Positions 1,208 to 63,773 of a stretch of 64,000 nucleotides of DNA are shown in pieces. The position numbers and the translations under genes are program-made. The notes beneath the pieces are model-generated. The model did not search any database. It saw only the letters and a list, made by a program, of their open reading frames with translations, and was not told where the DNA came from. The stretch lies in contig DWVJ01000031.1 of NCBI GenBank assembly GCA_019120315.1, forward strand, positions 84,410 to 148,409, in the 5' to 3' direction. The stretch comes from Candidatus Ruminococcus avistercoris (GTDB taxonomy: Bacteria; Bacillota; Clostridia; Lachnospirales; Lachnospiraceae). Numbering within the stretch: the stretch's first letter is position 1; each line of letters opens with the position of its first letter.

Positions 1208-1350
1208 GAGAATATTTTGTTGAGGCTTGCAGCGGAGCAAGTATGGATCCAGCGAAGGAGCAGACAATTTCTGTCATAGATGTGGAAGGCGGACAGGCAG
1301 CTATGACAGATGTACTGGCAGGGATTGCAGTCCTTTCAAAATTCGGTTGA
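1204..1350 (+). pseudogene. Short ORF overlapping the GNAT stop (ATGA); N-terminus resembles a DUF1989-type protein, probably a truncated remnant
   Basis: MREYFVEACSGASMDPAKEQTISVIDVEGGQAAMTDVLAGIAVLSKFG*; only 48 aa and ends inside the 32-bp direct repeat. Confidence 0.4.
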
Positions 1351-1375
1351 TTAACGGAAAAAGATAACATATAAT
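1344..1375 (+). repeat. 32-bp direct repeat, copy 1, containing a sigma-A promoter
   Basis: cggttgattaacggaaaaagataacatataat, identical to 2718-2749; TTGATT-17 nt-TATAAT. Confidence 0.95.
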
Positions 1376-1428
1376 ACAATCAGCTGATACTGACAGTCGT
1401 GAAAAGCACACCGGAAAGGAGTGATACG

Positions 1429-2706
1429 GTGGCAAAATTTTTTAACGTGACAGGGCCATGCATCCCCACAAAGCATTATATGGCTGACATATCGAAACAA
1501 ATCGCCAAGATCCGTAAAATGGTGGATGCGGGAGAGTATTTTGCCATAAACCGGGCGCGTCAGTTCGGAAAAACGACTACACTGACAGCATTGGAGAAAG
1601 CGCTGAAAGAAGATTATCTGGTGATATGGCTTGATTTTCAGGCCTTGGGAAGCGCCTCTTATGAGAATGAAAACATATTCTCTCTTTCGTTCCTGGAACT
1701 CTTTTTCAGAGAGTTAAAGCGCGTGCATGCGGATAAACGCCAGGAGATGAAAGATTGCATGGCGGAAATACAAAAAGTGAGAAGAGAACAGAACAGGAAG
1801 TTTGACCTTATGGAGCTGTTTGGACAACTGTTGGATATCTGCCGCACCAGCGAAAAACCGGTTGTCCTGATGATCGATGAAGTGGACAGTGCGTCGAATA
1901 ACCAGGTATTCCTTGATTTTTTGGCTCAGCTGCGTAATTATTTTCTGGAAAGAGATACAAAAGGTGTGGTCACCTTCCAGTCTGTCATCCTTACGAGTGT
2001 TTACGATATTAAAAAACTGAAACGGAAAATCCGCCCGGATGAGAGCCATAAAACCAACAGTCCCTGGAACATCGCGGCAGATTTTACTTTGGATATGAGC
2101 TTATCCAGAGACGGAATTGCGGGAATGCTTGCGGAATATGAAAAAGACTATCATACCGGGATGAACATCGGAGAAATCGCAGGCCTTTTGTCGGACTATA
2201 CCTCCGGCTATCCTTATCTGGTATCCAGACTCTGCAAGCTGATGGATGAGAAGATTGGAGGGGAAAACGAGGCGGGTAAAAAAGATGCCTGGACCAGAGA
2301 TGGCTTTTTAAATGCGGTGCGGATGCTGCTGATGGAAAGCAACACCTTGTTTGAGTCGCTGATCGGCAAACTGACCGATTATCCGGAACTGGGCAGACGA
2401 TACTTTCTTCTTTACCTCAGACCGATCATCAACGGCACCGGAAATTATTATGTGGAGGCCCGCACCAGGAGCCTTGGAAGGACGGATATTATTGTGGATT
2501 ACCGCGGACAGCAGTTTGTGATTGAGACAAAGATCTGGAGGGGAAACGAGTATCATATGCGGGGAGAGCGGCAGCTTGCCGAATACCTGAAAGACTATGG
2601 ACTGCAGACCGGTTATCTGCTCAGCTTCAATTTCAACCGGAAAAAGGAAACCGGTGTCCGGGAAATTGAGGTGGAAGGGAAGCGGATTATTGAAGCGGTG
2701 GTTTGA
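1429..2706 (+). CDS. AAA-like ATPase with C-terminal PD-(D/E)XK-like domain
   Basis: MAKFFNVTGPCIPTKHYMADI...INRARQFGKTTTL (Walker A-like), VVLMIDEVDSA (Walker B), C-terminal GRTDIIVDYRGQQFVIETKIWRG. GTG start at 1429 preceded by AAGGAG; track ORF starts at 1399. Confidence 0.85.
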   Translation: MAKFFNVTGPCIPTKHYMADISKQIAKIRKMVDAGEYFAINRARQFGKTTTLTALEKALKEDYLVIWLDFQALGSASYENENIFSLSFLELFFRELKRVHADKRQEMKDCMAEIQKVRREQNRKFDLMELFGQLLDICRTSEKPVVLMIDEVDSASNNQVFLDFLAQLRNYFLERDTKGVVTFQSVILTSVYDIKKLKRKIRPDESHKTNSPWNIAADFTLDMSLSRDGIAGMLAEYEKDYHTGMNIGEIAGLLSDYTSGYPYLVSRLCKLMDEKIGGENEAGKKDAWTRDGFLNAVRMLLMESNTLFESLIGKLTDYPELGRRYFLLYLRPIINGTGNYYVEARTRSLGRTDIIVDYRGQQFVIETKIWRGNEYHMRGERQLAEYLKDYGLQTGYLLSFNFNRKKETGVREIEVEGKRIIEAVV

Positions 2707-2717
2707 TGAAATCATAG

Positions 2718-2749
2718 CGGTTGATTAACGGAAAAAGATAACATATAAT
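2718..2749 (+). repeat. 32-bp direct repeat, copy 2, containing a sigma-A promoter, upstream of the radical SAM operon
   Basis: Exact match to 1344-1375. Confidence 0.95.
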
Positions 2750-2778
2750 GGATAACGATTGAGAAAAGAGAGGCTTTT

Positions 2779-4644
2779 ATGAGAAAACTTGCATTAAGCG
2801 ATGAGATACTTCTCAGTATCGAAAACCCGGCCCGTTATATCGGCGGGGAAGTAAACTCGGTGATGAAAGATCCCGAAAAAGTGGACATCCGCTTCGCCAT
2901 GTGTTTTCCTGACGTTTATGAGATCGGTATGTCTCATCTTGGCATACAGATTTTGTATGATATGTTTAACCAGCGGGACGATATCTGGTGCGAGCGGGTA
3001 TATTCCCCCTGGCCGGATCTGGATCAGATCCTGCGCCGGCGAAACATCCCGCTTTTTGCTCTGGAATCCCAGGATGAAATCCGAAAATTTGATTTTCTTG
3101 GCATAACCATCCAGTATGAAATGTGTTATACCAATATCCTGCAGATCCTGGATCTGTCAAAGATCCCCCTGCGCTCAGAAGACCGGACCTGGGAGGATCC
3201 CCTGGTAATCGGCGGCGGCCCCTGTGTCTCCAACCCGGAGCCCTTGGCTCCCTTCTTCGATCTGTTTTATATCGGGGAAGGAGAGACGGTCTACTATGAA
3301 CTGATGGATCTTTATAAAGAATGCAAAAGCGCCGGATGCAGCCGGAGGGAATTTCTGGAAAAAGCTGCCCGCATTCCCGGCATCTACGTACCGCAGCTTT
3401 ATCAGCCAATCTATCATGAAGACGGCACGCTGGAATCTTTTGATCCCCTCGTGGAGGGTATCCCAAAGAAGATCGCGCGGCAGGTGGTAATGGATCTTTC
3501 CCACACCTGGTATCCCCGCAAACCGGTAGTACCTTTTATCCGGGCCACACAGAACCGGGCGGTGCTGGAAATTCAAAGGGGATGTATCCGCGGCTGCCGT
3601 TTCTGCCAGGCCGGGATGATTTACCGTCCGGTAAGGGAACGGGATGTGGATTACTTAAAAGAACTGGCAAAAGATCTGATTCAGAACACGGGACACGAGG
3701 AAATTTCTTTAAGTTCCTTAAGTTCCAGCGATTATTCCCACCTTCCGGAACTGCTGGATTTTCTGATAGAAGAGTGCAAAAAAAACGGCGTCAACATCTC
3801 CCTGCCTTCTCTTCGCATCGACGCTTTTTCTCTGGATGTGATGAGCAAGGTACAGGACGTGAAAAAAAGTTCTCTGACCTTCGCTCCAGAGGCCGGAACC
3901 CAGAGACTGAGAAATGTGATAAACAAAGGTCTGACCGAGGAGGATATACTGGAAGGAGCCGCTCAGGCTTTTGCCGGGGGCTGGAGCAAAGTGAAACTGT
4001 ATTTCATGCTGGGACTGCCCACGGAGACGGAAGAAGACCAAAGAGCCATCGCCCGTCTGGCGGAGCAGGCAGCCCGCAAATACTACGAGATACCAAAGGA
4101 TCAGAGAAAAGGGAAATGCCAGATCACCGTCAGCACCTCTTTCTTCGTCCCGAAACCTTTTACACCTTTCCAGTGGGCGTCCATGTGCCCGGAAGAGGAG
4201 TATCTGTCCCGGGCAGCAGTGGTGCGCGATGAGATCAAAGAACAGCTGAACAAAAAGAGTATCCGCTACAGCTGGCATGAAGCCGATGTGACGATACTGG
4301 AGGGCGTCCTGGCCCGGGGAGACAGGAAAGTGGCCGACGTCCTTTTAGCCGCCTATGAAAAAGGCGCCGTCTTTGACGCCTGGAGCGAGTATTTCAACTA
4401 TGAATACTGGAAAGAAGCTTTTGCACAGACCGGGATCGATCCTGATTTCTATACTCTTCGCAAACGGGAAAAAGCGGAACTCTTCCCCTGGGATTTCATC
4501 GATGTACAGGTTGCAAAATCCTTTCTCTGGAAGGAGTGGGAGCGTTCCATGACCGGCGAAGTGACACCCAACTGCCGCGTACAGTGTTCCGGCTGCGGCG
4601 CATCGTCTCTGGGAGGAGGTGTCTGCATTGAAAGTAAGAGTTAA
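2779..4644 (+). CDS. TIGR03960-type B12-binding domain radical SAM protein
   Basis: 621 aa; radical SAM motif RGCIRGCRFCQAG, N-terminal cobalamin-binding-like region. Confidence 0.9.
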   Translation: MRKLALSDEILLSIENPARYIGGEVNSVMKDPEKVDIRFAMCFPDVYEIGMSHLGIQILYDMFNQRDDIWCERVYSPWPDLDQILRRRNIPLFALESQDEIRKFDFLGITIQYEMCYTNILQILDLSKIPLRSEDRTWEDPLVIGGGPCVSNPEPLAPFFDLFYIGEGETVYYELMDLYKECKSAGCSRREFLEKAARIPGIYVPQLYQPIYHEDGTLESFDPLVEGIPKKIARQVVMDLSHTWYPRKPVVPFIRATQNRAVLEIQRGCIRGCRFCQAGMIYRPVRERDVDYLKELAKDLIQNTGHEEISLSSLSSSDYSHLPELLDFLIEECKKNGVNISLPSLRIDAFSLDVMSKVQDVKKSSLTFAPEAGTQRLRNVINKGLTEEDILEGAAQAFAGGWSKVKLYFMLGLPTETEEDQRAIARLAEQAARKYYEIPKDQRKGKCQITVSTSFFVPKPFTPFQWASMCPEEEYLSRAAVVRDEIKEQLNKKSIRYSWHEADVTILEGVLARGDRKVADVLLAAYEKGAVFDAWSEYFNYEYWKEAFAQTGIDPDFYTLRKREKAELFPWDFIDVQVAKSFLWKEWERSMTGEVTPNCRVQCSGCGASSLGGGVCIESKS

Positions 4645-62419: not shown

Positions 62420-62698
62420 TTATTCGTCCCATCCTTCTGTAAACCTTATATTGACGGCAATGTTTCTCACCACATCGCCCTCCATCAGTTCCATATCTTC
62501 CGGATCGGAAACGGCAGGCAGCACGCCTTCGTCCTCCATCAGTTCCACATACAGCCAGTCATAAGCCGCCTCGTTGGCTTTATCCACCGCTTCCTCCAGC
62601 GTATCGCCGCTGGCCTGGCAGCATTCCAGATCTGGAAAAAACGCGTCGTAAGTTCCCATATCATTTTTCCGGATCACCGCCGGATAAATAAATTTCAT
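62420..62698 (-). CDS. HicB-like antitoxin family protein
   Basis: MKFIYPAVIRKNDMGTYDAFFPDLECCQASGDTLEEAVDKANEAAYDWL; GGAGG RBS inside the upstream gene end. Confidence 0.85.
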   Translation of the reverse strand: MKFIYPAVIRKNDMGTYDAFFPDLECCQASGDTLEEAVDKANEAAYDWLYVELMEDEGVLPAVSDPEDMELMEGDVVRNIAVNIRFTEGWDE

Positions 62699-63773
62699 AT
62701 TCTCAGTTCCTCCACTTTGCAATGATGTTTTTTTTCGGATTTGTCATATCCGATCATCTCGACAAGCTGATCCATCAGTTCTTTGTTTGGAATGGACACC
62801 ATGCCATTTTCGCAGCTTAAAAAGCCATAAACAACCATGGCCGATAAAATCTCTTCCTTGGTTCTTAGTTCCTGTGACGTGGCTGCATATTCCCGGACTC
62901 TGGCCGGAACACTGCTTCCTGATATCATGACCGCAATATCATCCCGGACTGCATCCACATTATTGCGAATATAATAGAACATCTCATCATACGGACCAGA
63001 ACTAGTCCAGTAATTCCCCAGATTATTATTAGAAAGGGACATCACAACCGATCTTGACTTCTCTTTCAGTAAATCCAAAATATTCCGAAAACCGCTCTTC
63101 CGATGCCAGTGTAAATTCACTGAACATATTCAATTCTGAACCACTGGAATATTTTGCAATTGGCAGAATGCCGGTCATATAAGCGAGAAGTACGTATGGT
63201 CTGTCTTTCAGCAGGTTGCGCAGAAAAGAAAGGTACTTCCTTTTCTCGTCATCTGAAATAAAATCCTGATGGAAAATATAGTCCCATTCATCCAACACGA
63301 AAATAAACCGTGCAGAATCGTCTGTGGAATACAGTTCCATAAGAAAATCCGCCGCATTTTCTTCCGGATCAAATACTGCATGGGGATATTTTTTTCATCA
63401 GATCTTTCACCAGTCTTTTTTCTATCCTTCCAATATACTGCTTGTAGGAAGTATAGCCTCTCCCCAATTCATTAAAAGAAATATGAATAACGGAAAACTG
63501 ATTACAGTATCTGTCAAACTCCTTATCCTCTGCAATCTGTAACGACCGGAAAATATCCCGAGAATCAAATGCATTCGAAAAAAAAGCAGCAATCATATTC
63601 GCCATTACCGTTTTCCCAAATCGTCTCGGTCTTGTAATACAGATATGATTATTTCCTGTTCTCACCAATGGAAATAATTCCGTCAAAATCCTGGTCTTAT
63701 CTACAAAATATGGTTTTTCTGTTTCACTTTTATACAAAGTGTACGCTGTCTTACTGTCCAGATAAACACCCAT
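62695..63773 (-). pseudogene. Decayed PF09820-like AAA-ATPase gene (two frame disruptions; lacks nuclease-like C-terminus)
   Basis: YFVDKTRILTELFPLVRTGNNHICITRPRRFGKTVMANMIAAFFS; second frame FIFVLDEWDYIFHQDF...LLAYMTGILPIAKYSSGSELNMFSEF...YFGFTEREVK; third frame SVVMSLSNNNLGNYWTSSGPYDEMFYYI. Confidence 0.85.

Follow-up and report, generated by a model that had tools for sequence, protein, structure and literature searches.

An AAA ATPase/PD-(D/E)XK nuclease-like gene between two exact copies of a promoter upstream of a TIGR03960 radical SAM operon

Genes of the AAA/PD-(D/E)XK class are present in multiple copies in gut bacteria and beyond, and in the literature surveyed their spread and role were found unexplained. 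For the DUF1703-type genes (PF09820 + PF08011 PDDEXK_9), horizontal transfer and expansion have been described, with no insertion mechanism given (PMC6387759). As regards the Rpn nucleases (YhgA-like, PF04754), RpnA leaves ends that can prime a polymerase and promotes RecA-independent transfer (PMC5350276), and these nucleases were reported to have neither inverted repeats nor target-site duplications (PMC10327210).

The locus described here lies near the start of a 64-kb stretch of DNA, called the window, which belongs to a draft assembly of 48 contigs with a total of 2.44 Mb and a completeness of 92%. The 32-mer CGGTTGATTAACGGAAAAAGATAACATATAAT occurs on the plus strand at 1344-1375 (copy 1) and at 2718-2749 (copy 2), without mismatches and with a start-to-start distance of 1374 bp. 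It is the sole exact direct repeat of at least 16 bp with a spacing of 200-5000 bp in the 64-kb window. When up to three mismatches were allowed, no further copy was found in the window, where none is expected on the basis of shuffled sequence, and no third copy was found in the 2.44 Mb of its own genome. A promoter scan revealed TTGATT-17-TATAAT in both copies, with 10 of 12 consensus positions matched. Between the two copies there is one gene only (1429-2706, plus strand); no transposase domain (Pfam) and no integrase gene were found in this interval, and no terminal inverted repeats were seen at the unit ends in an inverted-repeat search. The first-pass annotation had reported the exact repeat, its promoter motif, the 1374-bp unit, the single gene and the absence of a transposase, and every number was confirmed. 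On the left of copy 1, a 48-codon open frame (1204-1350) that stops within the repeat, and whose sequence weakly resembles the start of DUF1989 (E=0.099), is probably a truncated gene.

The gene between the repeats starts with GTG and encodes a protein of 425 residues. Its N-terminal half gave AAA_35 and AAA-ATPase_like matches, both above the Pfam cut-offs (for PF09820, 28.8 bits with respect to a gathering score of 26.1), and its C-terminus matched PDDEXK_3 with 21.5 bits, just under the 22-bit cut-off. PDDEXK_3 is the only nuclease domain of this kind listed among the Pfam matches, which contain neither the PDDEXK_9 (PF08011) C-terminal domain nor PF04754 (Rpn). The motif residues D353, E366 and K368 are invariant in 36 homologues. 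As compared to four close relatives, which are 507-534 residues long, the window protein lacks 110 residues, missing in frame between the ATPase and the nuclease parts, a gap found in none of 134 other family proteins. The lost stretch includes positions conserved in the family, and for this reason the protein may be altered or inactive; the motif residues of both domains are retained. The AlphaFold2 model is of middling quality (pLDDT 77), and its best fold matches in the PDB are AAA+ proteins of the Orc1/Cdc6 type (top match 2qby_A, E=3.2e-06). The PDB sequence search returned no relative. The PADLOC models gave weak matches only, the best being PDC-S54 (E=1.6e-4, over 40 residues), and a defence-system label for the gene was dropped.

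The 32-mer was then searched, with up to three mismatches, in 397 genomes of the same family. Outside its own genome it was found in one of them, G117, which belongs to another genus. In G117, 31 of the 32 bases are conserved and the sequence is present once; it occupies the promoter position of the corresponding TIGR03960 gene, and the AAA gene is absent. An empty site with a single repeat, for which the first-pass annotation had looked to related strains, does therefore exist, in another genus and not in a sister strain, and its right flank goes with copy 1. With this distribution, the 32-mer is not the widespread promoter-like repeat that had been considered as an objection to the insertion; its 29-bp core has no exact match in viral contigs either, and a phage or common element was rejected. 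A second genome of the same other genus, G414, also has no ATPase-nuclease gene at the TIGR03960 operon. The 32-mer was not found in G414 at up to three mismatches, so that the single-copy comparison is made with G117 only. Within the genus of the window no empty site was present: three other genomes of the genus have unrelated promoter DNA at the operon, with no AAA gene there. Several other genomes of the family (L015, L016, L021, L022 and L030) share another conserved promoter of the TIGR03960 operon (CTTGAAGTTCT...ATGTATATAATAG), unlike that of the window.

The two copies differ in their relation to the single-copy site. Copy 1 and its surroundings are identical to G117 at 51 of 54 positions over 1334-1387, colinearly on both sides. 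The similarity includes the 12 bases that directly follow the promoter, ACAATCAGCTGA (1376-1387, plus strand), which represent the beginning of the native operon leader and are identical in G117. The copy-1 side and the G117 site have therefore 44 bp in common (1344-1387), more than the 32-bp repeat. From 1388 to the start codon, the similarity to the G117 leader is no better than that of shuffled sequence, and a leader homology past 1387 was rejected as chance level. In copy 2, the match to G117 is confined to the repeat core (30 of 30 aligned bases). What follows copy 2 directly is the short leader GGATAACG. The leader region (2750-2778, plus strand) contains a ribosome-binding site and is shortened by about 47 bp of the 5' part that is present in the G117 leader; it is followed by the TIGR03960 radical SAM gene (2779-4644, plus strand; NCBIfam), first of the operon. 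In this region, positions 2747-2810 of the window are identical to the leader and gene start of G414 at 64 of 64 positions. The segment delimited by the end of the G117 leader homology and by the start of copy 2 (1388-2717, plus strand) is what we take to be the inserted unit. It consists of the AAA/nuclease gene, preceded by about 41 bp in which a ribosome-binding site lies and followed by 11 bp, and its own upstream stretch gave no promoter match on the plus strand.

Comparison with G117 thus places the insertion, indicates that the gene is absent from the single-copy site and identifies the copy with native flanks. Since the 12 bases found after the single copy of G117 also follow copy 1, copy 1 is, judging from the flanks, the native promoter and copy 2 the added one. 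This reverses the order implied by the first-pass annotation, in which copy 2 was the original promoter of the operon. The broader proposal made there, a gene insertion with duplication of the promoter, gains from the single-copy site in G117; its plain form, a 32-bp target duplication, does not fit, because ACAATCAGCTGA would then follow copy 2, whereas it actually follows copy 1. That the copies do not differ at a single base points to a recent event and speaks against an old, divergent duplication, which had also been considered as an objection.

In our opinion, insertion of the AAA gene plus duplication of the promoter is the best account of the locus and, on balance, a probable one. The AAA gene, together with about 41 bp of upstream and 11 bp of downstream sequence, would have entered the 5' leader of the operon at about 1387/1388, 12 bp downstream of the promoter core, and a host stretch of at least 44 bp containing the promoter (1344-1387) would have been duplicated to both sides of the gene. 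The right-hand copy would then have lost about 47 bp of leader through a deletion between two AAT triplets, which would leave the exact 32-bp repeat. A 44-bp duplication followed by this loss would be the smallest correction that makes the plain-duplication model fit. Transcription of the AAA gene could start from copy 1 and that of the operon from copy 2, so that the insertion would cost the host little. From this arrangement we infer that duplication accompanied the insertion, that a deletion trimmed the right-hand copy and that both promoters are used. In favour of the account are the single-copy site of G117, the absence of the AAA gene from G414, the colinearity of copy 1 with G117, the identity of the two copies and, from the class at large, the similar outlines in L167, L103, L126 and L074, the excess of close flanking repeats and the movement in single-gene units, all described below. 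Several observations count against the account: the extra deletion that it needs, a comparison site that belongs to another genus, the lack of flanking repeats around most family members, the loss of 110 codons by a gene that may be inactive, and the report that Rpn nucleases have no target duplications (PMC10327210).

The question whether related genes carry similar repeats was addressed by looking for direct repeats (E ≤1e-6) in 250-bp flanks. Close flanking direct repeats were found around 6 of 167 AAA/PD-(D/E)XK genes as compared to 0 of 592 other genes (Fisher p = 1.1e-4), where the controls were not matched for mobility and the six positives comprise the window, which prompted the test, and L185, an apparent shared terminator, so that four cases are left without these two. 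One of the four, L167, was first noticed as a control gene when a previous form of the test was run, and later proved to be of the DUF1703 type. Most of the 167 family genes have no flanking repeat. In the own genome, three other PF09820 genes, two of which run to or near contig ends, have no end repeats of about 30 bp, and such repeats, which the first-pass annotation had proposed to look for around other genes of the class, do not hold as a rule. Short target duplications (10-14 bp) showed no shift with respect to controls as a mark of the family. Repeats at five loci were set aside: an antitoxin fragment next to an intact toxin-antitoxin pair (L063), tandem copies (L093), a paralogue array (L095), the terminator-like sequence of L185, and a repeat located at contig ends (L116). 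The last is a contig of 4766 bp with an AAA gene and an exact 99-bp repeat at both ends; it may be circular or represent a single tandem-array unit.

The four cases besides the window resemble long duplications (38-132 bp). In L103, the AAA gene has the intact next gene on its right and, on its left, a copy, decayed to 74%, of about 95 bp from that gene's 5' end; the same neighbours are found in G546 without the AAA gene. In L167, a canonical DUF1703-type gene lies between two 61-bp repeat copies of 98% identity, which contain the upstream half of the next gene's promoter. This promoter is single in L159 and L181, where it precedes related genes with no DUF1703-type gene between. L167 has the same outline as the window, namely promoter, inserted gene, promoter, next gene. 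In L126 and L074 the repeat consists of the 3' end of the preceding gene, 38 bp of an rlmD-type gene and 132 bp (93% identical) of an AraC gene, respectively. In our reading, the differences between the copies in L074 and L126 are nearly all synonymous, a pattern that counts against the insertion account in suggesting diverged functional alleles and not a decaying fresh duplicate, and for this reason we are cautious about assuming one mechanism for all cases. A conserved promoter-like stretch, TTGACAAyTTCATACTTTAyATyAGATT, precedes AAA genes of different genomes (L159, L181 and L167); L159 and L167 agree at 97% over 33 bp, a conservation beyond that expected from the genes, and the stretch is perhaps a shared regulatory site.

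The AAA family has a patchy distribution, with a strong match in 47 of the 397 family genomes and up to 16-17 matched places per genome, some of which may belong to a single gene. The searches yielded a single plasmid record, no record from phages and no PHROG match, and three relatives were found in viral contigs; on the basis of the plasmid, phage and PHROG results, plasmid or phage spread was rejected. Similar AAA genes are found among differing neighbours, and the DNA similarity often stops near the gene. In L105 (6001-9033), a full AAA gene precedes a methyltransferase gene and the remnant of another copy follows it, at the position where the relatives L079 and L107 have their AAA gene. 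These patterns point to movement in units of approximately one gene. Genes of the family often lie directly beside other DUF1703-type genes (L054, L072, L076, L141 and L219), and therefore the class tends to cluster. Another DUF1703-type gene, at the end of the window (62695-63773) and close to that of the contig, is split into several short frames and is probably a decaying copy. On contig 29 of the own genome (L238, 604-4696), one of the three other PF09820 genes mentioned above, of the DUF1703 type, has an Rpn-like nuclease gene on either side; these two neighbours are paralogues with about 72% similarity at the DNA level.

Other explanations of the locus were considered, which in decreasing order of probability are a fusion of alleles, an assembly error, separate events and the action of an integrase. 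The first is linked to the recombinant character of the neighbourhood. Over its first 60 bp, the TIGR03960 gene shares 97% identity with G117 and 75% with G003, which is of the same genus as the window; the first 60-120 bp are 97% and 87% identical to the other genus, and the remainder near 70%. Beyond the 5' end of the gene, the window is mostly nearer to G003 than to G117. This shift in sliding identity indicates an exchange between lineages of a recombinant tract that comprises the promoter and the operon's 5' end. On the left of the repeat, a HAD hydrolase gene (ending at position 175 of the window) has its best match in G003 and none in G117 or G414. Two alleles could have been fused at this locus: a donor promoter together with the AAA gene would have recombined into the resident chromosome immediately in front of the promoter already there, and the two copies would be the promoters of donor and resident, with no duplication at insertion. 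Such a fusion would agree with a promoter and gene start that are a tract in common with another genus, with a copy-1 side that is G117-like and a copy-2 side that is G414-like, and with the L074 and L126 repeats, which resemble diverged alleles; it would also explain the differing leaders after the two copies without any extra deletion. However, it requires a donor in which this promoter precedes the AAA gene, none of which was found, two promoters identical over 32 bp and an illegitimate join precisely at the left edge of the resident promoter, and the first entry of the gene would merely be shifted to the donor. We regard allele fusion as the main rival and as rather unlikely.

It is improbable, in our judgement, that the assembly placed two alleles from a mixed sample one after the other, giving a false second promoter copy. 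The draft state of the genome, with its 48 contigs, the resemblance of the two sides of the insertion to two different relatives and the unusual loss of 110 codons within the gene would be in line with such an error. On the other hand, the upstream HAD gene and the body of the operon both group with the same genus, so that the contig does not simply combine two species; moreover, the deletion in the gene is in frame and similar structures are present in other assemblies. A slightly smaller probability is assigned to two separate events, in which the gene would have entered the leader without duplication and the promoter would later have been copied before the operon and kept by selection. This would be consistent with native flanks around copy 1 and with a copy 2 that is native only from the AAT junction on, but copy 2 begins at most 11 bp from the stop codon of the gene, which for a later event would be a chance hit, and the same outline is found in other members of the class. 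Finally, an integrase encoded outside the unit could have integrated it site-specifically and used the repeats for attachment, the unit then being a satellite or the remnant of an integrative element; we consider this very improbable. In its favour are the exact repeat at both ends and the position of L126 at the 3' end of an rlmD-type gene, a known integration site of integrative elements. Against it are an interval without integrase, a repeat that was not found in viral contigs and was found in a single other genome of the 397, and repeats that from case to case have no common length or sequence.

Going back to insertion with promoter duplication, its most speculative part is how the duplications would arise. 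Breaks or nicks made by a nuclease of this class, followed by filling-in or by template switching of a polymerase, might give duplications that are long and vary in length: the gene would insert into a gap left by a break or by nicks far apart, and repair would copy the neighbouring host DNA. Considering that RpnA leaves polymerase-priming ends and promotes RecA-independent transfer, such chemistry is plausible. Speculatively, the AAA protein itself might make its own insertion and duplication. As a generalisation, AAA/PD-(D/E)XK genes might be self-moving single-gene elements with long variable target duplications (about 40-130 bp), which leave the host gene working and take over its promoter; we regard this as rather unlikely at present. 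If it were true, a whole promoter or gene end would be copied, so that the host gene still works and the host promoter is taken over. The window suggests how a promoterless gene may gain expression without harm to a conserved neighbour, and the long duplications around a few relatives are a clue to the possible movement of these multi-copy genes. A recent exact promoter duplication, a comparison site and a few similar cases provide a handle on the insertion mechanism.

With respect to the known systems, the window gene resembles the DUF1703-type genes in that its product has an N-terminal ATPase matching PF09820 and a C-terminal nuclease of the PD-(D/E)XK type, and its family shares with them a patchy distribution, multiple copies and signs of horizontal transfer. 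Unlike in DUF1703-type proteins, the C-terminus scores PDDEXK_3 and not PDDEXK_9, and an internal domain has been lost in this copy; the gene belongs to a subfamily (opening FNVTG...HYMVD) distinct from the canonical DUF1703-type genes that lie beside family members. Similarity to the archaeal AAA+ proteins of the Orc1/Cdc6 type is at the level of the fold and concerns the ATPase part only, with TM-scores <0.5 and 10-15% identity. Rpn genes also encode PD-(D/E)XK nucleases, with variable copy number and gain or loss of single genes; they differ in having no ATPase domain, and a minority of the present class, unlike what is reported for Rpn, has long direct duplications. As in insertion sequences, a gene-sized insert is flanked by a direct repeat of host DNA and is absent from the related locus. 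The window unit differs from them in carrying no transposase and in showing no terminal inverted repeats, and the duplications around members of the present class are long (38-132 bp) and variable in length.
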